DNA of 64,000 bases from Flavobacteriales bacterium (lineage in GTDB: Bacteria; Bacteroidota; Bacteroidia; Flavobacteriales_D; Crocinitomicaceae), in assembly GCA_018883325.1 (NCBI GenBank), contig VEQH01000010.1, positions 1 through 64,000 on the forward strand, read 5' to 3'. Shown here piece after piece: positions 19,914 to 30,000 of this stretch. The stretch's first letter is position 1, and each line of letters opens with the position of its first letter. The notes beneath the pieces were generated by a model, which was not told the DNA's origin, searched no databases, and worked only from the letters and a program-made list of their open reading frames with translations. Position numbers and translations under genes: made by a program.

Positions 19914-20549
19914 CTACAAATCCAATTGATAAACCTCAGAAAGATTTTTATTGTCTTTTATTGTGATTTTTAAATCGTTTATTAAACCATCTTTTACATC
20001 GTAAACCCATCCATGAACGTGTAATTCTTGATTGTTTTCCCAAGCTCCTTGAACGATTGAGGTTTTTGCTAAATCAAGAACTTGTTCCATGACATTTAAT
20101 TCTACAAAGCGATTAAATCTTTCTTTTTCGTCCTCGATTTTATTGAGTTCTTTTTGATGAAAACGATATACGTCTTTGATATGTCGAATCCAATTGTCAA
20201 TGATACCAACGTGTTTATTGGTCATTGCTGTTTGTACTCCACCACAGCCGTAATGACCACAAACAATTATGTGTTTTACTTGCAATACATTCACCGCATA
20301 ATCAAGCACCGACAATAAATTCATATCTGAATGCACAACCATATTTGCAATATTGCGGTGAACAAATACTTCTCCAGGTTCTGCACCAATTATTTCATTT
20401 GCAGGAACACGACTGTCTGAACACCCAATCCATAAAACAGGTGGTTTCTGTCCTGATGCTAGTCGTTTAAAATAGTCGGGGTCTTGCTTTGTTTTTCTTG
20501 CTACCCATTCTTTGTTGTTTTCTAATAGTTTATTATAAAATGCTTCCAT
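19914..20549 (-). CDS. can: Beta-class carbonic anhydrase
   Basis: The 211-residue enzyme interconverts CO2 and bicarbonate. The zinc ligands are C43 (in CSDSRVPANEIIGAEPGE, with the D45/R47 dyad), H99 and C102 (CGHYGCGGV), all intact. The length is standard for bacterial Can. It lies only 8 bases after the SulP transporter gene, so the two are surely cotranscribed. A SulP transporter with an anhydrase partner suggests bicarbonate uptake or pH and CO2 balance, inferred from context. Confidence 0.95.
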   Translation of the reverse strand: MEAFYNKLLENNKEWVARKTKQDPDYFKRLASGQKPPVLWIGCSDSRVPANEIIGAEPGEVFVHRNIANMVVHSDMNLLSVLDYAVNVLQVKHIIVCGHYGCGGVQTAMTNKHVGIIDNWIRHIKDVYRFHQKELNKIEDEKERFNRFVELNVMEQVLDLAKTSIVQGAWENNQELHVHGWVYDVKDGLINDLKITIKDNKNLSEVYQLDL

Positions 20550-20557
20550 TCTTTTGT

Positions 20558-22108
20558 TTAGTTTTTTACATTAATATTTATCATTTGTAATTGAATATTC
20601 TTGTTTTTTGAGCCAAATTCTTTGAACTCACTTAGAATTTCAATTATGTCATAATCAATTGATTTACATTTACTTCCATCGATAATGAGTTTTGAGTTTT
20701 CAGGGGTTTTTTCTAGAATTTTGATGATTCCAGCCTTGTTTAAGAAAGTTACTTCTTCAGAAAGTGTGACTTTGGTCTCGTTGTTGGATTGTTCTTTAAA
20801 GAAGTTGTTTTTGTAGTTCTTTTTAAGAATGTAGAAAATTGAAATAGCTAAACCAATTGCAATTCCTTTTAATAAGTCAGTCAATAATACTCCAATAATT
20901 GTTGTTGCAAAAGGAATAAATTGTTCCCAACCCAATTTGTACATCGATTTAAAAAGCGAAACTTTTGCGAGTTTGTATCCAACCATTATTAACACGGCTG
21001 CAAGGGCTGCTAAAGGGATTTGATTGAGTAATTGCGGTATAAACACAATAGCTATTAAAATCAGAAATCCATGAACAATTGTTGACAGTTTGGATTGACC
21101 ACCAGCATTAACATTTGCCGAACTTCTAACAATTACTTGTGTAATAGGCAGACCACCTAAAAATCCGCTAACTATATTTCCAATTCCTTGCGCTTTTAAT
21201 TCTTGGTTGGTGGGTGTGATGTGTTTTTGAGGATCTAATTTGTCGGTAGCTTCAACAGAAAGTAAAGTTTCCAAACTCCCAACTAGCGCTAATGTAAATG
21301 CAATCATATATACATTTGGGTTGCTCAAAACCGAAAAATCAGGAAATGAGAAAAATCCAACAAAATCATTTAGGGATTTGGGAACCGGAAGTTGAACTAG
21401 ATGAATGCTAGCAACTTTTAAGTCACCTGCAATTATTCCAAGTAAATTATTTAACAAGATGGAAATTACAACAACAATCAAAGCTCCTGGAATCAGTGAA
21501 AAAAGTTTATTTTCCTTAATCCATTTTGTGTCGAACAAAAGTAGAATGAGAAGTGAAACAACCCCAATAGCTATTGCTCCTGGATGCAAAGCTTGGAGTG
21601 AATAATAAATTTCTGAAAAGGTATTATGTCCGTCCTTCTGTAAAAACGACTCATCGCCAAAGAAATCTTTATCGTAACCAACTAAATGAGGAATTTCTTT
21701 TAAGATAAGTGTGATACCAATTGCGGCAAGCATGCCTTTAATAATTGAAGAAGGAATGTAATTTGCAATTATTCCAGCTTTGAGAAATCCTGCAATGAGT
21801 TGAAAAATGCCAGAAATTACGACAGCTACTAAAAAAGCTTCATAGCTTCCTAAAGTTGAAATTGCTGAAACTATTATAGTTATCAAACCTGCAGCTGGGC
21901 CAGAAACACCAAGTCGTGAACCACTTAATAAACCTACAATAATTCCACCTATGATTCCAGCTACTAATCCAGAAAATAAATTTGGTAAACCTTCAATTCC
22001 TTCAACAGAAGTGGAGGCTAACCCAACGCCCAAACACAATGGAAGGGCAACTAAAAATACAACTAAACCTGCTGGCAAATCTTTTTGCCATGTTTTAAAA
22101 TGAACCAT
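20558..22108 (-). CDS. SulP-family inorganic anion transporter with STAS domain
   Basis: The 516-residue membrane protein has the SulP core of about 12-14 helices (residues 10-410), including the opening WQKDLPAGLVVFLVALPLCL and the GSRLGVSGPAAGLI stretch, and a cytoplasmic C-terminal STAS-like domain (about 430-516, SKLIIDGSKCKSIDYDIIEI). SulP proteins carry sulfate, bicarbonate or other anions. The directly adjacent carbonic anhydrase gene favours bicarbonate (BicA-like), but the substrate cannot be proved here. It is the second gene after the small secreted protein, 34 bases downstream. Confidence 0.9.
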   Translation of the reverse strand: MVHFKTWQKDLPAGLVVFLVALPLCLGVGLASTSVEGIEGLPNLFSGLVAGIIGGIIVGLLSGSRLGVSGPAAGLITIIVSAISTLGSYEAFLVAVVISGIFQLIAGFLKAGIIANYIPSSIIKGMLAAIGITLILKEIPHLVGYDKDFFGDESFLQKDGHNTFSEIYYSLQALHPGAIAIGVVSLLILLLFDTKWIKENKLFSLIPGALIVVVISILLNNLLGIIAGDLKVASIHLVQLPVPKSLNDFVGFFSFPDFSVLSNPNVYMIAFTLALVGSLETLLSVEATDKLDPQKHITPTNQELKAQGIGNIVSGFLGGLPITQVIVRSSANVNAGGQSKLSTIVHGFLILIAIVFIPQLLNQIPLAALAAVLIMVGYKLAKVSLFKSMYKLGWEQFIPFATTIIGVLLTDLLKGIAIGLAISIFYILKKNYKNNFFKEQSNNETKVTLSEEVTFLNKAGIIKILEKTPENSKLIIDGSKCKSIDYDIIEILSEFKEFGSKNKNIQLQMININVKN

Positions 22109-22142: not shown

Positions 22143-22487
22143 TTAACTAATTTTTTCAGGTGGGGAATAGGGAATGATTGAGAAATTTCTTGAATCAAAG
22201 TCTTCTTTAAATTCAAACCAAGACTTGGTGCTGAAATTTAAAATTCGAGTTAGATTGACAGAAAAGTGATTTAATTCAATGTCTTCTTTTGTTTCTTGTA
22301 TCATCACTAACAAACTTTCTGTTTCCTCAATTGCTTGCGAATTTGAGTCTAGTTGTTTGAAAGTGGTTTCATTTTGACGATAAGAAATTGTTGTGCTGAA
22401 ATCAATTAAGCAAAAAGAAGATAGCACTAGTTGAAAAACCAGAATGCTGGTTAAAAACATAGACCACTTAACGCTATTAATTTTCAT
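22143..22487 (-). CDS. Small hypothetical secreted or membrane-anchored protein
   Basis: The 114-residue protein has a hydrophobic N-terminal segment (WSMFLTSILVFQLVLSSFC, about 8-26), either a signal peptide or an anchor, followed by a polar Glu/Asn/Ser-rich remainder. I do not recognise the family. It is the first gene before SulP and the carbonic anhydrase on the minus strand. Its ATG is preceded, 5 bases away, by TAAATTTG (22493-22500 read on the minus strand), a perfect -7 box, suggesting a leaderless or nearly leaderless transcript. Confidence 0.6.
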   Translation of the reverse strand: MKINSVKWSMFLTSILVFQLVLSSFCLIDFSTTISYRQNETTFKQLDSNSQAIEETESLLVMIQETKEDIELNHFSVNLTRILNFSTKSWFEFKEDFDSRNFSIIPYSPPEKIS

Positions 22488-22650: not shown

Positions 22651-23340
22651 ATGGAAGATTTATTATCAACAGTAGATATTAAAGTAAACGAGAAGTTGTT
22701 TTTAAAAAACCCAACTAGTTCAGAATTAGGGATGAGAATTGTTAATTTCGGAATCTCAATGATTCAAGAAGTTGGATTTGAAAATTTTACATTTAAAAAA
22801 TTAGCTGCAAGAATAGAAACAACAGAAGCTTCTATTTACAGGTATTTTGAGTGTAAACATTCTTTTTTACTTTATCTCATCAATTGGTATTGGGGAATGA
22901 TTGAATATCGTTTGTTAATCGAAACGGCAAATATTGATGATCCAATTCGTAAATTATATAAATCATTGCATGTAATTACCTCTGTACCCAATCCTGAAAA
23001 TGAATTGGTTTTTCAACGCGAATTAAGCTTGAAAAGCTTAGTAATCAATGAGTCTGCAAAAATCTACAGAACAAAAGCTGTTGATAAAGAAAATGAAGAT
23101 GGAGCTTACAGTGTATACAAATCAATAGTTGCTCGAATCGTTGAATTGATTGTGGCGATAAATCCAAATTATCCTTATCCTGCAATGTTGATTTCAACAA
23201 TCATAGAAAGTAGCAATCACCAACGATTTTTTAAAGATCATTTACCCAAACTAACAAATACAGTTTCAAACAAAGATGCTTTTGAGCATTTTGCATTAGA
23301 TTTAATCAACAAAACCTTAGAAATCAATGGAAAAAGATAA
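22651..23340 (+). CDS. TetR/AcrR-family transcriptional regulator
   Basis: The 229-residue protein carries an N-terminal helix-turn-helix (about 25-70). The stretch FENFTFKKLAARIETTEASIYRYFECK matches the TetR pattern in which the second helix precedes a recognition helix ending in YRYF. The C-terminal two thirds are helical and variable, as in ligand-binding TetR domains. Its stop overlaps the exporter gene start by 14 bases (23327-23340), so it is translationally linked to the efflux genes and probably controls them and itself through the palindrome at 22613-22627. The inducer is unknown. Confidence 0.9.
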   Translation: MEDLLSTVDIKVNEKLFLKNPTSSELGMRIVNFGISMIQEVGFENFTFKKLAARIETTEASIYRYFECKHSFLLYLINWYWGMIEYRLLIETANIDDPIRKLYKSLHVITSVPNPENELVFQRELSLKSLVINESAKIYRTKAVDKENEDGAYSVYKSIVARIVELIVAINPNYPYPAMLISTIIESSNHQRFFKDHLPKLTNTVSNKDAFEHFALDLINKTLEINGKR

Positions 23341-25018
23341 TATTTCACCTATAAATCGTTTTTGGTTATTGCTAAAACCTGACAGTATTGAAATTCGAAA
23401 CATTTATATTTTTGCTGTTTTTAGTGGGATTCTTTCAATGGCTTTACCATTGGGAATTCAAGCGATTATAAATTTTATACAAGTTGGACAAGTTAGTACT
23501 TCTTGGATTGTACTTGTCTTTTTAGTTGTATTAGCAATTGGATTTTCAGGTGTTTTGACAATTGCACAGATGCGTATTACGGAGAATTTACAACAACGTA
23601 TTTTTGTTAAAGCCGCTTTTGAATTTGCAGATCGAATTCCAAAAATTAAAATGGAAGAACTAATCAAACGATACGCGCCAGAACTAACAAATCGTTTCTT
23701 TGATACCTTGACCATTCAAAAAGGACTTTCAAAGTTATTGATTGACTTCACTGCAGCGAGTTTGCAAATTATATTTGGCTTAGTTTTACTTTCATTCTAC
23801 CATAGTTTTTTCATCTTTTTCGGATTAGCTTTGGTTTTTCTGTTGGCGCTTGTTTTGAAGTTTACTTCCCAAAAAGGTTTTGATTCTAGTTTGACCGAAT
23901 CTAAATACAAGTATAAGATTGCGCATTGGCTAGAAGAAATTGCGCATGCAAGATTCAGTTTTAAAATGGCTGGAAATCCAGAACTATCATTAACACAAAC
24001 GGATGATTATTTGAAAGGATATTTAACTGCTCGTAATATTCACTTTCGAGTTTTGGTGCAACAATTTACATTTTTAATTGCGTTCAAAGTGTTGATTGCT
24101 TTGGCATTATTAATAATTGGCGGCTTATTGGTTCTTAATCAAAGCATGAATATTGGTCAATTTGTTGCTGCTGAAATTATTATTCTTCTTGTTTTAAATT
24201 CGGTTGAAAAATTAATCATGAGTTTAGAAGTGGTTTATGATGTTTTAACTGCCGTGGAGAAAATCGGACAAGTTACTGATATAGAATTAGAAAATTACGA
24301 TGGCATAAAAATCCCTGAAAATGAAAATGGTTTCGAACTTTCGATTGATAAAGTTTCTTTTCAAACTGATTTATATAGGAATCCGATTTTAAAAGATATT
24401 TCTTTGGAAGTCGCTGCTAATCAAAAGGTTTGTATTGTTTCCGATTCAACCGTGACCGTCAATACGCTTTTCTGTTTAATTGGAGGTGTGTATCCAGTTA
24501 GTGCGGGGAATATTTCAATTGAAGGACTACCAATCGGAAATTTAGATATTCAGGAGATGAGAAATAAAATTGGTAACTTGTTGATGCAAGACAGATTATT
24601 TCACGCAAGTATTTTAGAAAATATTACGCTGGGTAGAAAATACATTTCTTTCGAGGAGGTTCAAAAAGTTGCGAAAATCTTGACGCTTTCTGAAGCAATT
24701 AATAATTTTTCTGAAGGTTATAATACAGATTTAAACCCAGAGGCGCACTTCATTCCTCGAGATATCACTAAAAAAATCTTGTTGATTAGAGCGTTTGTTG
24801 GAAATCCAAAATTAATTCTTTTGGAAGAACCATCTGATACGCTGAATGAAGAACAAACAGATCAATTAATTTCTTTAATGGACGAGAAGAAAAACGTTTC
24901 AATATTTTATTCTTCTTCGGATGAAAAGTTAATGAAAATTGCAGATAAAATTATTCAGTTCGAGAAAGGAAAAGTGATTTTCGAGGGAACATATCAATCA
25001 TATAAAGCAAAAAAATAG
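23327..25018 (+). CDS. ABC exporter with degenerate nucleotide-binding domain
   Basis: The 563-residue protein has the layout of a half-size ABC exporter: membrane domain (about 20-300) then nucleotide-binding domain (about 335-563). Aligned by eye to the family, Walker A (GxxGxGKST) reads SDSTVTVNT near residues 370-378. The LSGGQ signature is replaced by IPRDITK near 476. The Walker B line is LILLEEPSDTL with the Asp changed to Glu. The H-switch His is Ser (FYSSSDEK). The Q-loop Gln (LMQDRLFHASILENI) is kept. No peptidase or CLD domain is fused. The reading frame is intact and overlaps tetR, so this is not simple decay. It should form the inner-membrane part of a tripartite system with the HlyD and TolC proteins that follow, but probably does not hydrolyse ATP in the ordinary way. 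Confidence 0.88.
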   Translation: MEKDNISPINRFWLLLKPDSIEIRNIYIFAVFSGILSMALPLGIQAIINFIQVGQVSTSWIVLVFLVVLAIGFSGVLTIAQMRITENLQQRIFVKAAFEFADRIPKIKMEELIKRYAPELTNRFFDTLTIQKGLSKLLIDFTAASLQIIFGLVLLSFYHSFFIFFGLALVFLLALVLKFTSQKGFDSSLTESKYKYKIAHWLEEIAHARFSFKMAGNPELSLTQTDDYLKGYLTARNIHFRVLVQQFTFLIAFKVLIALALLIIGGLLVLNQSMNIGQFVAAEIIILLVLNSVEKLIMSLEVVYDVLTAVEKIGQVTDIELENYDGIKIPENENGFELSIDKVSFQTDLYRNPILKDISLEVAANQKVCIVSDSTVTVNTLFCLIGGVYPVSAGNISIEGLPIGNLDIQEMRNKIGNLLMQDRLFHASILENITLGRKYISFEEVQKVAKILTLSEAINNFSEGYNTDLNPEAHFIPRDITKKILLIRAFVGNPKLILLEEPSDTLNEEQTDQLISLMDEKKNVSIFYSSSDEKLMKIADKIIQFEKGKVIFEGTYQSYKAKK

Positions 25019-25021
25019 GCA

Positions 25022-26374
25022 ATGTTAAATTTATCTCCTACAAATAAAAATCAATTGCCCAGAGAAGATTTTTGGGCTTTGAAGTCAGTAATAAAAGAGA
25101 AATCTTCAAAGAAAATTATCCGTGTTTTTTACGTTTTTTTCGTCCTTGCGCTTATTTTTATGTTCATTCCTTGGACACAGAATGTGCGTTCAAATGGAAA
25201 ACTAATTACCCTTCGACCGGAACAACGTCCACAAACTATCAATACCATCATTGCAGGTAGAATTGAGAAATGGTATGTGAAAGACGGAGATATTGTAAAA
25301 AAAGGAGACACCTTACTTTTTATTTCCGAGGTGAAAGATGGTTATTTTGATCCAAAATTAGTGGAACGAACGAAAGACCAAATTCGAGTTAAAGAACAAT
25401 CAGTGAAAACTTATGGCGACAAAGTTGTTTCTCTTGATAATCGAATTGATGCATTGATTGAAGCGGGTAAATTGAAATTACAACAAGCTCAAATCAAATT
25501 GAAGCAAACTAAGTTGAAATTGATTAGTGACAGCATTGATTATCAAGTTGCTAGAAATAATTTTGAAATTGCAAAAGATCAGTTTGAACGTTTTGAAAAA
25601 TTGACCAAAGAAGGTTTGAAATCACAAACAGATTTGGAGGTTCGTAAAGTTTCAATGCAACGCGCACAAGGAAGTATGATTAGTGCTCAACAGAAATTGT
25701 TGCAATCTCGAAATGATATTATTGATGCTAAAGTTGAATTGTCTTCGATTGAGGCTAAATATCGCGACGAGATTTCAAAAGCAGAATCAGATAAGTTTTC
25801 TGCGATGACAAGTATGTTTGAAACAGAAGTTGATGTAACTAAATTACAAACACAATCAGCTAATTATTCTATTCGAAATGGAATGTATGTAATTACTGCA
25901 CCTCAAGATGGCGTAGTCACGAAAGTCATTCAAAGCGGAATCGGTGAAACGGTAAAGCAAGGAGAAGAAGTGTTGACAATTATGCCGAAAGTTTATGATT
26001 TGGCTGTAGAAATGTACATTCGTCCAATGGATTTACCTTTGATTGAAAAAGGACAAAAAGTTAGAATTCAATTTGATGGATGGCCTGCAATTGTTTTTTC
26101 TGGTTGGCCAAATACAAGTCACGGAACGTATGGTGGAGAGGTGTTTGCAGTTGATAATTTTGCGCAAGAAGATGGAACTTTTAGGGTTTTAATTCAACCT
26201 GACAAAAAAGATAATAAATGGCCGAGTGAACTTCGCGTTGGAGGAGGAACGAATTCTATGATTTTATTAAAAGATGTTCCTGTTTGGTATGAATTGTGGC
26301 GAATCATCAATGGTTTCCCTCCAGATTTCTATAAAAAATCAGATGTAAAAGCTAAAAAAGATCAAAAAAAATGA
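25022..26374 (+). CDS. HlyD-family periplasmic adaptor subunit
   Basis: The 450-residue protein has a cytoplasmic N-terminus, one membrane helix near 36-54 (IRVFYVFFVLALIFMFIPW), a first lipoyl half-motif (GRIEKWYVKDGDIVKKGDTL), a long alpha-helical hairpin of about 190 residues (coiled coil) and a second lipoyl half (GMYVITAPQDGVVTKVIQSG) plus a beta-barrel region. It would bridge the inner-membrane exporter and the TolC channel. It begins 3 bases after the exporter gene and overlaps the TolC gene by 4 bases. Confidence 0.93.
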   Translation: MLNLSPTNKNQLPREDFWALKSVIKEKSSKKIIRVFYVFFVLALIFMFIPWTQNVRSNGKLITLRPEQRPQTINTIIAGRIEKWYVKDGDIVKKGDTLLFISEVKDGYFDPKLVERTKDQIRVKEQSVKTYGDKVVSLDNRIDALIEAGKLKLQQAQIKLKQTKLKLISDSIDYQVARNNFEIAKDQFERFEKLTKEGLKSQTDLEVRKVSMQRAQGSMISAQQKLLQSRNDIIDAKVELSSIEAKYRDEISKAESDKFSAMTSMFETEVDVTKLQTQSANYSIRNGMYVITAPQDGVVTKVIQSGIGETVKQGEEVLTIMPKVYDLAVEMYIRPMDLPLIEKGQKVRIQFDGWPAIVFSGWPNTSHGTYGGEVFAVDNFAQEDGTFRVLIQPDKKDNKWPSELRVGGGTNSMILLKDVPVWYELWRIINGFPPDFYKKSDVKAKKDQKK

Positions 26375-27756
26375 AAGCAATCTTAAATGTTTTATTTTTA
26401 GGTATTTGTCTTTCTTTTTCAAGTCAAGTAGTTTTCACTGAGCAAGGATTTCAAGAATTAGTTTTGCGCAATCATCCTTTAGCAAAGCAAGCTAATTTAC
26501 AACCAGAAGTTGGGGAAAGCTATTTATTGAAGGCAAAAGGAGGATTTGACCCAAAAGTGTACAATCAAACAGATCAAAAGTATTTTAAAGGTTCACAATA
26601 TTACAGCTTGATAAACTCAGGTTTAAAGCTTCCAACTTGGTATGGTGTTGAATTAAAGTCAGGCTTTGAAAATAACCGCGGAACAAATTTGGATTTGCAA
26701 AACAAAACACCAAATAGTGGTTTGTGGTACGGAGGTGTGTCTGTAAATCTTGGACAAGGATTGTTTATCGACCAACGAAGAGCAGAATTATTCAAGGCGC
26801 GTATTTATCAAAAAAGTACATTGGCAGAGCAAAAATTACAACTTAATGAACTGTTTTACGAGTCTGGCTATTCTTATTGGAATTGGTTTTTGGCTTATCA
26901 TTCCAATCAGATTTTACGCGAAGCATTGTCATTGGCTGAAATTCGGTACGATGCAATTAAAAGAACAGCCGACCTTGGTGATCGCCCAGGAATTGATAGT
27001 GTTGAAGCAAGAATTCAAGTACAAACGCGCGCTGTATTATTGCAGCAATATGAAGCTGAACTTCAAAATGCAAAACTCAAACTTTCTACTTTTTTATGGA
27101 CAGAAAATGACGAGCCACTTGAATTAGAAGAAACCACAATTCCACTTCCAAAGACGGATATTGCTATTCAGAATTCAGCAGATTACAGAACTTTAATTAG
27201 TGATTCTGTTATTCAAACGCATCCGTACTTACAAATTGCAAATTTCAAAATCGAAACATTAGAAGTTGAAAAAAGATTGAAAAGAGAACAACTTAAACCA
27301 CAATTGAATTTGCAGTACAATTTTTTGAATGAACCAATCAATTACAATCCCTTGGACGGTTTTTCCATCAATAATTACAAATGGGGTTTGACCTTTGAAA
27401 TGCCACTGTTTTTGAGAAAAGAACGCGGTGATTTACAATTGGCTGATTTAAAAATCCAATCGGCGGAATTTCAATTGGACAACACAATTGCTTCTTTGAA
27501 TTTTAAAATAAAAAGCTCGCTTGTTGACTTGGAAAATATGAGTGCGCAGTTAGAGATTTACAAACAAACTGTAGAAGACAACCGCACTTTGCTAGAAGCT
27601 GAAAAGCGTATGTTTGAGAACGGAGAAAGCTCTTTGTTTTTGATAAACGTTCGCGAAATGGCTTACATTCAATCTCAATTGAAATACATTGAATTACTAA
27701 CGAAAAATCAACAAGCTGCAATTGCTTTGAAGTTTGCGTTGGCTCGATTGATTTAG
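26371..27756 (+). CDS. TolC-family outer-membrane efflux protein
   Basis: The 461-residue protein has a signal peptide (about 1-19, LNVLFLGICLSFSSQ) and the two repeated helical halves of outer membrane factors, with the long heptad-rich segments (EVEKRLKREQLKPQLNLQYN; YKQTVEDNRTLLEAEKRMFE). It is the last gene of the tetR-ABC-hlyD-tolC operon, overlapping hlyD by 4 bases, and converges on the DUF4143 ATPase gene 16 bases away. Confidence 0.93.
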   Translation: MKAILNVLFLGICLSFSSQVVFTEQGFQELVLRNHPLAKQANLQPEVGESYLLKAKGGFDPKVYNQTDQKYFKGSQYYSLINSGLKLPTWYGVELKSGFENNRGTNLDLQNKTPNSGLWYGGVSVNLGQGLFIDQRRAELFKARIYQKSTLAEQKLQLNELFYESGYSYWNWFLAYHSNQILREALSLAEIRYDAIKRTADLGDRPGIDSVEARIQVQTRAVLLQQYEAELQNAKLKLSTFLWTENDEPLELEETTIPLPKTDIAIQNSADYRTLISDSVIQTHPYLQIANFKIETLEVEKRLKREQLKPQLNLQYNFLNEPINYNPLDGFSINNYKWGLTFEMPLFLRKERGDLQLADLKIQSAEFQLDNTIASLNFKIKSSLVDLENMSAQLEIYKQTVEDNRTLLEAEKRMFENGESSLFLINVREMAYIQSQLKYIELLTKNQQAAIALKFALARLI

Positions 27757-27772: not shown

Positions 27773-28960
27773 TCAATTAAATAAATCACTGGGATTCATT
27801 CTTAAAAATGTTTCAATTGCTATACCACCTGTCCCAACTAACAAAACTTTTTGTGGTTTAAAAGTTTGCGCAAAGACACGCATTCCATTGTTCTCAGCTC
27901 GTTTTCCTGTTTTTACTTCTAAAGCAATTAAGGTATTTTTACGTTCAAGTATGAAGTCAACTTCGTCGTTCTTTTCTCGCCAATAATAAACCTTGTAGTT
28001 GTTAGTTATGGCGTTATTTATTAGATGTGCTCCAATTGCAGATTCTGTTAGTCTTCCCCAAATTTTTGAATCTGAAACAGCCTTTTCAAATGTTAAATCA
28101 TCTTGTGCAGTTAGCAACGCATTATTGAAAACTTGAAATTTTGGTTTGGAAGCACGTTTACGAATGATGTTTCCAGCAAATTTTTCAGTTGCTCCCAATA
28201 ATCCTGAATCTGAAAGTAAAGTTAAATAGTGTGATAAAGTAGTTGTGTTTCCTGCGTCTTGCAATTCACCTAAAAGTTTAGTGTAAGCCAATATTTTTCC
28301 TGAATACAAGCATCCTAATTCAAACAAACGTCTTAAAACAGCTGGTTTGTCAACACGTGTTAACATTAAAATATCTTTAGAAATACTCGTTTCAATCAAA
28401 GAATCTTTAATGTAATTTTTCCAACGTTCTTCTTCATGAATTAAACCCACAGCACCAGGATATGACCCATAGTAAATGAATTGATTGACATTCCATCCAA
28501 ATGCTTCTTCAATTTCAGAGAATGACCAATGTCCAACATAAGTAATTTCAAACCTTCCAGCGAGTGATTCGGTTAAACCTTTTTGAATCATCAATCGCGA
28601 AGAGCCGAGTAAGATTAATTTGATGTTTATATTTTCTCTTGTGTCAAAATCCCATTGTTCTTTTACGATTTCACTCCAATTATCCAATTTTTGAATTTCG
28701 TCGATTATTAGAATTAACTCAGTGTTTGCTTCGTTTTTTAACTGAATACGTGCATTTTCCCAGATTTGCTGAATCCACAACCAATTCGAATTAATTACTC
28801 CATCAGCTGAAACATAAATTGTTTCGGATTCCATTTCTTCCCTTAGTTGTTTCATCATTGTTGTTTTACCAACTTGCCGAGGTCCCATCAAAACTTGGAT
28901 GAATTTTCGAGGTTCATTCATTCTTGATTTTACTGTTTCCAACTGATTTCTTCGTATCAT
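27773..28960 (-). CDS. AAA ATPase of the AAA_14/DUF4143 family
   Basis: The 395-residue protein has Walker A GPRQVGKTT (26-34) and Walker B ELILIIDEIQKL in an N-terminal AAA_14 domain. The C-terminal DUF4143 domain ends in the nuclease-like pattern VDFILERKNTLIALEVKTGK (D...E.K), which resembles the PD-(D/E)XK core. These proteins are widespread, often mobile, and have no agreed function. Upstream (28991-29033) lies a cluster of TTACT/AGTAA inverted repeats that could be an operator. It appears to be transcribed alone. Confidence 0.9.
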   Translation of the reverse strand: MIRRNQLETVKSRMNEPRKFIQVLMGPRQVGKTTMMKQLREEMESETIYVSADGVINSNWLWIQQIWENARIQLKNEANTELILIIDEIQKLDNWSEIVKEQWDFDTRENINIKLILLGSSRLMIQKGLTESLAGRFEITYVGHWSFSEIEEAFGWNVNQFIYYGSYPGAVGLIHEEERWKNYIKDSLIETSISKDILMLTRVDKPAVLRRLFELGCLYSGKILAYTKLLGELQDAGNTTTLSHYLTLLSDSGLLGATEKFAGNIIRKRASKPKFQVFNNALLTAQDDLTFEKAVSDSKIWGRLTESAIGAHLINNAITNNYKVYYWREKNDEVDFILERKNTLIALEVKTGKRAENNGMRVFAQTFKPQKVLLVGTGGIAIETFLRMNPSDLFN

Positions 28961-29196: not shown

Positions 29197-30000
29197 TTAG
29201 ACCGAGCGATCGATTTTTTTCTTTTCACGTTGATTTCCAATATTTTCTACAATTTCAAATAAATGGTTGGCATTATCAATTAAGCGGTCAAGTTCAAGGT
29301 CGAAGAATTGTGCGATGTGTTTGTTCCATTTACCTGGATTTTTATCTAAGTCTCTAAAACTGTTTCCAAGAACTTGGATGTATTCTTTTTTTTCAGTTGC
29401 ATCGCTGATAAATGTTGGTGGAAACAAATCATACATTAAAATCCAGTTTTTGGCAACGCGTGTTACTCTACCATTTCCATCTGCAAAAGGATGAATACGA
29501 ATCAATTCGTGGTGAAAATAAATCGCGCGTATTATCGGATTTGAAATTTGTTTCATTTGGTAAAATAACTCTGCGACTAAACTTGGAACTTCGCTTCCGT
29601 CAGGACAAATATGTGCACCAATTTGCACTAATGTATTTCTGTATTTATTCGGATGAATGCTATTTGTTTCTGGTGAAATTAAACGCAACAATTGAAATAA
29701 TTGAACTTCACTATCAAAGCGATTGTGATCATTTATTTCATCAACTACAAAATCTAGTGATTTTTTCAAGTTAATGATATATTCTTCCAGTTCTTCCTCA
29801 GTTTGCGCTTCCATTTGCGCATTTTTTATTCCTACCAATTCTTTCAAATTGTGCATTCCAGTCAAATAGGAATCTAACAAATCGTCGTCAAAATGGTAAC
29901 GACTGTAAATGATTAATCGGTAAATTTTACGAACGGTGTCTTCTAATTGTTGAATTTTAGAAAAATTAAAAACGATTTCTGACGGAGGAAGTAATTGCAT
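29197..30000 (-). CDS. Fic-domain protein (putative AMP-transferase)
   Basis: The 267-residue protein contains the complete Fic motif HPFADGNGRVTR near residues 169-180 (HxFx(D/E)GNGRxxR), with catalytic His and phosphate-binding GNGR, so it should transfer AMP or a related group to a protein Ser, Thr or Tyr. Fic proteins usually carry an inhibitory (S/T)xxxE(G/N) helix; the N-terminal candidate segment reads SRYHFDDD and lacks the Glu, so I see no intramolecular inhibitor and no separate antitoxin gene beside it. The 196 bp upstream of the DUF4143 gene separate the two. Targets are unknown. Confidence 0.9.
   Translation of the reverse strand: MQLLPPSEIVFNFSKIQQLEDTVRKIYRLIIYSRYHFDDDLLDSYLTGMHNLKELVGIKNAQMEAQTEEELEEYIINLKKSLDFVVDEINDHNRFDSEVQLFQLLRLISPETNSIHPNKYRNTLVQIGAHICPDGSEVPSLVAELFYQMKQISNPIIRAIYFHHELIRIHPFADGNGRVTRVAKNWILMYDLFPPTFISDATEKKEYIQVLGNSFRDLDKNPGKWNKHIAQFFDLELDRLIDNANHLFEIVENIGNQREKKKIDRSV

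Follow-up and report, generated by a model that had tools for sequence, protein, structure and literature searches.

Tripartite exporter operons of Bacteroidota with an ABC-type membrane protein whose nucleotide-binding domain is degenerate or missing

Introduction

What powers a tripartite exporter whose ABC-type inner membrane protein has lost the motifs of its own ATPase? ATP-powered transport has its textbook example in ABC exporters, and truncated MsbA and SbmA have been the basis for arguing whether an ABC membrane domain can run on ion gradients alone. The question is raised by an operon in the window analyzed here, i.e., the whole 64,000-nucleotide stretch (positions 1 to 64,000 of contig VEQH01000010.1, GenBank assembly GCA_018883325.1) from a Flavobacteriales bacterium. 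A preliminary description, made from this stretch alone, had recognized an ABC exporter gene with an apparently inactive nucleotide-binding domain (NBD) and suggested that the system is either powered or gated differently or paired with a second ABC protein encoded elsewhere. Here we examine the locus together with its relatives across Bacteroidota and weigh the possible sources of energy.

Results

The operon and its surroundings

The genes of the operon, and the domains and altered motifs of its ABC-exporter-like protein, are as follows:

22651..23340, + strand: tetR-type regulator of 229 aa that opens the operon (PF00440, 30.1 bits)
23327..25018, + strand: ABC-exporter-like protein, 563 aa, an open reading frame with an intact transmembrane domain (TMD) and a degenerate NBD
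23327..24316, + strand: TMD, residues 1-330 (PF00664 at residues 26-290)
24329..25015, + strand: degenerate NBD, residues 335-563 (PF00005, 26.2 bits)
24440..24466, + strand: Walker A site, SDSTVTVNT in place of GxxGxGK[ST]T (P-glycoprotein alignment)
24587..24589, + strand: Q-loop Gln421, kept (alignment)
24752..24766, + strand: signature site, IPRDI in place of LSGGQ (residues 476-480)
24824..24829, + strand: end of Walker B, Glu500 replacing Asp, followed by Glu501 at the preserved catalytic-Glu position (alignment)
24917..24919, + strand: H-switch position, Ser531 instead of His (alignment)
25022..26374, + strand: HlyD-type periplasmic adaptor, 450 aa (PF13437, 54.2 bits; TIGR01843, 95.9 bits)
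26371..27756, + strand: TolC-type outer membrane channel, 461 aa (PF02321, 111.1 bits)

The reported open frame overlapping tetR and followed by hlyD and tolC is borne out, with a 14-bp overlap between tetR and the ABC gene, a 3-bp gap between the latter and hlyD, and a 4-bp overlap of hlyD and tolC; the inner membrane protein, HlyD adaptor, and TolC channel of a tripartite export system are co-encoded. A tetR orthologue also lies upstream of the ABC gene in most relatives, and the TetR control suggests induced efflux, the cargo of which would be either a small compound or one of the cell's own products.

Just upstream of the operon, on the opposite strand (window positions 19914-22108), are genes for a Pro_CA carbonic anhydrase and a SulP-type permease; SulP, with or without the carbonic anhydrase, adjoins the exporter operon in only a few members, viz., the window, L070 (a close relative), L158, and L188. 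A 114-aa protein with no family assigned is encoded between SulP and tetR (22143-22487), a position that it keeps in L070. Just 3′ of tolC, the minus strand carries genes for an AAA_14/DUF4143 ATPase (27773-28960) and a Fic-domain protein (29197-30000).

An exporter fold lacking the catalytic motifs

The window protein combines a six-helix ABC-type TMD with an ABC NBD fold: its matches to the Pfam ABC_membrane (31.7 bits, cut-off 28) and ABC_tran (26.2 bits, cut-off 25) models both barely pass, and its AlphaFold2 model (pLDDT 83.7 overall, mostly 85-93 in the NBD) displays the complete exporter fold, which a VIA structure search matched to HlyB (8dck, Z 30.3) and TmrB (Z 30.5), i.e., Z ~30 over 550 residues. 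Its best NCBIfam names are NHLM/PrtD/LssB-type exporters, far under their cut-offs (143.7 versus 709.4 bits).

Alignment with P-glycoprotein upholds the reported absence of Walker A, LSGGQ, the Walker B Asp, and the H-switch His, and the retention of the Q-loop Gln. In the HMMER alignment, GNSGCGKST of P-glycoprotein corresponds to SDSTVTVNT (residues 372-380) of the window protein, with Val378 at the Lys position. The substitution of the Walker B Asp is likewise real (Glu500), but the account needs correcting in that the position of the catalytic Glu is retained as Glu501. No canonical motif surfaced at a shifted position by alignment or regular expression: G4GK[ST] and [LIVMF]SGG have zero matches in the whole protein, so no displaced Walker A or signature has been overlooked. 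As read from these alignments, a canonical catalytic site is impossible in this NBD.

With the entire motif set gone, one might suspect a gene in decay or a mistake in the sequence, an explanation that is hardly credible and already refuted by the open frame, the overlapping genes of the operon, dN/dS values well below 1, and altered motifs common to relatives. The altered motifs of the window protein recur in three independent relatives (L012, L013, and L070; 84-85% identity), which excludes a sequencing error. The NG86 estimates of dN/dS, rough and with dS near saturation, are 0.06-0.11 for the NBD and 0.015-0.04 for the TMD, and by this measure purifying selection acts on the window protein. 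Conservation within the window clade extends to the altered signature stretch, NPEGHFIPxD (N470 and D479 in 21/22 each, P477 in 19/22).

A widespread family with graded motif decay

A first contig scan yielded 69 loci and was followed by whole-genome searches with a 40-row profile (A1), which matched 63 of 100 sampled genomes of the window's own taxonomic family, 97/395 genomes of a phylum sample, and 197/395 of a class sample. The searches brought the distinct homologues from Bacteroidota to about 200. Among 202 distinct proteins whose loci were read, 192 have hlyD directly 3′, many of the loci being short, and tolC and tetR are mostly present where the locus is long enough. The shared gene order and altered motifs that the preliminary description proposed to look for were found, the operon being common across the family and the motifs shared by close relatives. 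The stretch VIFEGTYQSY, which it had taken for the family core, is present in some members only. In the A1 alignment the TMD is the most conserved part and has nearly all of the invariant columns, with only 5 of about 60 falling in the NBD.

None of the 188 NBD-bearing members has an exact LSGGQ, whereas the Walker A Lys persists in 154, the Walker B Asp in 28, and the H-switch His in 8; a wholly missing motif set, earlier deemed rare, is within this family the rule. Homologues with all motifs intact did not emerge either. The most canonical members, five basal ones (L149-L153), keep Walker A and the Walker B Asp-Glu, and three of them the His, still without LSGGQ (their signatures read LSTGQ, LPQGM, MPIGL, ISFGM, and LSESL), and the signature Ser and second Gly are still present in some other lineages (e.g., FSKGI). 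From these partly kept motifs, the ancestral state of the family was probably an ATPase, and the decay across the family is graded. Nearly restored signatures were seen in L110 (LSGGI) and L149 (LSTGQ).

As a control, we assembled the orthologues of a canonical ABC exporter encoded in the same genomes (23 sequences, L238-L260), all of which have GK[ST], LSGGQ, DE, and H (23/23). The NBD/TMD divergence ratio is 0.73 in this control versus 1.6-2.7 in the present family, which indicates that the usual stronger constraint on the NBD than on the TMD is inverted here.

Many members bear an N-terminal extension of about 130-200 aa before the TMD (L041, L053, L065, L068, L069, L072, L073, L148, L150-L152, L156, L206, L207, L228, and L230-L233), and no Pfam domain was detected in it in the four members examined. 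The titles of some metagenome-assembled records clash with their Flavobacteriales/Bacteroidota-type content, viz., L013, L018, and L070 (Chitinophaga pinensis), L026 (Polynucleobacter meluiroseus), and L073 (Bifidobacterium breve); these are probably mislabelled or contaminated bins.

Complete loss of the NBD

In nine members (L140-L145 and L200-L202; 332-339 aa) the protein ends just after TM6 with hlyD directly downstream, and in the fully read loci among them (L140-L145) hlyD and then tolC follow directly 3′. Their genomes are 99-100% complete, one being a single-contig 7.0-Mb genome. In three further members (L212-L214; 749-781 aa) the TMD is fused to HlyD without an NBD; at the L213 locus tetR is kept in divergent orientation and tolC is also kept. 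A search of 12 genomes with NBD-less forms using an NBD profile (A2) found no family NBD in trans, only NBDs of full-size exporters at no more than 175 bits; the positive control, the family NBD of genome G288, scored 323 bits. An apparent NBD-less member accompanied by a separate NBD (L198/L199 in genome G698) was rejected as an assembly break, both pieces stopping at contig ends.

Decay of ICL2 is specific to the forms that have lost the NBD. The ICL2 region is the NBD-docking loop in exporters, and its identity falls from 0.58 in NBD-bearing sisters to 0.25 in the NBD-less forms and 0.15 in the fusions; ICL1 identity stays at 0.56 in the NBD-less forms and drops to 0.19 in the fusions. In the window clade ICL2 identity is 0.45, versus 0.57 among Walker-A-bearing members. 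The pattern fits an NBD that is truly absent from the NBD-less and fused forms and would still be docked in the window protein.

A TMD tree of 118 members and 5 outgroups requires at least 10 state changes, and a reduced tree without the long branches (L149, L205, and the outgroups) 9. On the reduced tree, a single clade of all the members with losses is rejected (p-AU 3.8e-5), a test in which the grouping was chosen after viewing the first tree and the trees were built by a quick method. The window protein falls in a fully supported Walker-A-less clade (15 sampled rows), and the NBD-less forms nest next to the NBD-bearing L148. Walker A is intact in most members; several lineages, the clade of the window among them, lost it independently.

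Charged residues of the membrane domain

Two charged residues of the TMD stand out:

24086..24088, + strand: Lys254 in TM5, 96% conserved; Lys or Arg in NBD-less forms
24173..24175, + strand: Glu283 in TM6, acidic in 181/181 main-set members (179 E, 2 D)

The Glu283 position is also acidic in every NBD-less, fused, and near-canonical or basal member, and is occupied by Phe in P-glycoprotein and Asn in ComA; further conserved acids of the TMD are Glu86, Glu294, and Asp305. Glu283 is a candidate proton-coupling residue. It and Lys254 show the same degree of conservation where Walker A and Walker B are intact, and so did not arise with the loss of the ATPase. The NBD-less forms have gained no new acids in the membrane helices, as would have been expected had proton coupling arisen with that loss; proton coupling, if used, may therefore predate it.

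Discussion

How the exporter may be energized

The TMD-HlyD-TolC unit is, judging from gene order and conservation, maintained without a canonical catalytic site, and the earlier conclusion that it is powered or gated differently is now well supported, the loss being conserved, lineage-wide, and repeated, up to removal of the NBD from maintained operons. The best explanation, which we regard as fairly probable, is a working TMD-HlyD-TolC exporter under TetR control whose own NBD no longer hydrolyzes ATP. We infer secondary transport by this unit, with proton coupling as the most likely, if unproven, source of energy. There are precedents: MsbA deprived of its NBD exports ethidium by delta-pH (PMC4979069), and SbmA is an NBD-less, proton-driven secondary transporter related to ABC TMDs, for which descent from full ABC transporters has been proposed (PMC13316013). 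In the family under study, Glu283 of TM6 with Lys254 of TM5 would be the candidate coupling pair, and in the window clade the folded, degenerate NBD would stay as a docking or structural element. Several considerations count against this explanation, among them the undiminished conservation of Glu283 and Lys254 in members that keep Walker A and Walker B. The Walker A Lys is retained in 154/188 NBD-bearing members, for which reason nucleotide binding may remain important for a large part of the family; and a generic ABC ATPase may be recruited in trans, which is compatible with the sequences. Whether the family further represents a natural series leading, in separate Bacteroidota lineages, from an ATP-driven ABC exporter to a proton-driven tripartite efflux pump is a proposal that could equally well hold or fail; its steps would be the loss of the signature, and then the loss of Walker A, the deletion of the NBD, or the joining of the TMD to the adaptor.

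ATP could still power the system if the window protein were a non-catalytic subunit that joined an exporter of canonical ABC type, or a free ABC ATPase, encoded elsewhere, in a mixed dimer or some larger mixed assembly. Heterodimers with one degenerate half, e.g., TmrAB, occur commonly (PMC7756269), and the genome of the window has genes for five ABC exporters of canonical size as well as for several free ABC ATPases. However, these exporters are just 21-27% identical to the window protein, which is the single family member in its genome; each operon has one ABC gene, and in none of the loci examined does a second family member lie beside it. Furthermore, the NBD-less and HlyD-fused members offer no NBD for pairing, their NBD-contacting ICL2 has decayed, and the 12 NBD-less genomes lack a family NBD in trans. 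On these grounds the suggested second ABC partner appears unlikely.

Similarly improbable is a gated or passive conduit, in which the substrate moves down its own gradient via TMD, HlyD, and TolC and an NBD with Walker A is only a nucleotide-sensing gate. A D-loop mutation does turn TAP into an ATP-gated facilitator (PMC7756269), and the persistence of the Walker A Lys in a family devoid of LSGGQ (0/188) would suit such a gate, but no site for sensing nucleotides is left in the window clade, the NBD-less clade, or the fusions, all of which retain the same TMD and operon, and a passive TolC conduit does not provide uphill export. Very doubtful, finally, is hydrolysis of ATP by the NBD through a non-canonical site: Glu501 and Gln421 are kept, and a folded NBD is predicted, with purifying selection acting on it, yet the Walker A Lys and the signature, the two halves of the composite site, are lost together, and some relatives have no NBD at all.

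Under the preferred reading of an exporter that no longer uses its own ATPase, a widespread family has kept membrane domain, adaptor, and channel and dropped the ATPase in steps still visible side by side, and its living relatives make the conversion of a primary to a secondary pump directly testable by comparison. The annotation "ABC transporter ATP-binding protein" in Bacteroidota may misstate the energy source and, if true, the proton-driven series would add an energy class to the tripartite exporters, beside ABC, RND, and MFS. A literature search, covering few subscription papers, found no description of a fully degenerate tripartite ABC exporter in Bacteroidota.

Comparison with known systems

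The closest likeness is to type I secretion and other tripartite ABC exporters (HlyB-HlyD-TolC, PrtD, NHLM TIGR03796/TIGR03797, PCAT1, and ComA), which have the same ABC-hlyD-tolC order and give the best sequence-family matches; HlyB (8dck) and PCAT1, along with TmrB, share the TMD and NBD fold with the window protein (Z ~30). Unlike them, the latter is without Walker A, signature, Walker B Asp, and H-switch His, some members have no NBD, and scores are far below every curated NCBIfam cut-off. By its motifs, it does not qualify as the ATPase-driven inner membrane component of type I secretion. Heterodimers with one degenerate site (TmrAB, TM287/288, and TAP) have altered NBD motifs in one chain and are the closest PDB folds, but here the operon has no second chain and all motif types are altered in one protein, a homodimer of which would be unable to form a canonical site.

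The SLiPTs are peptide importers with an extra TM0, and they are not known to have a HlyD/TolC operon. Transport by SbmA/BacA is proton-driven and involves a glutamate ladder; what the present family displays in this respect is the set of conserved TMD acids Glu86, Glu283, Glu294, and Asp305. As in SbmA/BacA of this group, supposed to descend from full ABC transporters (PMC13316013), an ABC-type TMD of the NBD-less relatives would function without an NBD; a PDB search with a profile of these forms (A3) matched only ComA at E<=0.001, and SbmA was not matched. The window protein differs in retaining a degenerate NBD, which only L140-L145/L200-L202 and L212-L214 lack, and intermediate stages of NBD loss survive in this family. 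MsbA-MD, a laboratory NBD truncation of MsbA, likewise works with a membrane domain only, which suffices for efflux driven by delta-pH (PMC4979069); there the construct is artificial, whereas here a comparable cut is natural and has been retained.
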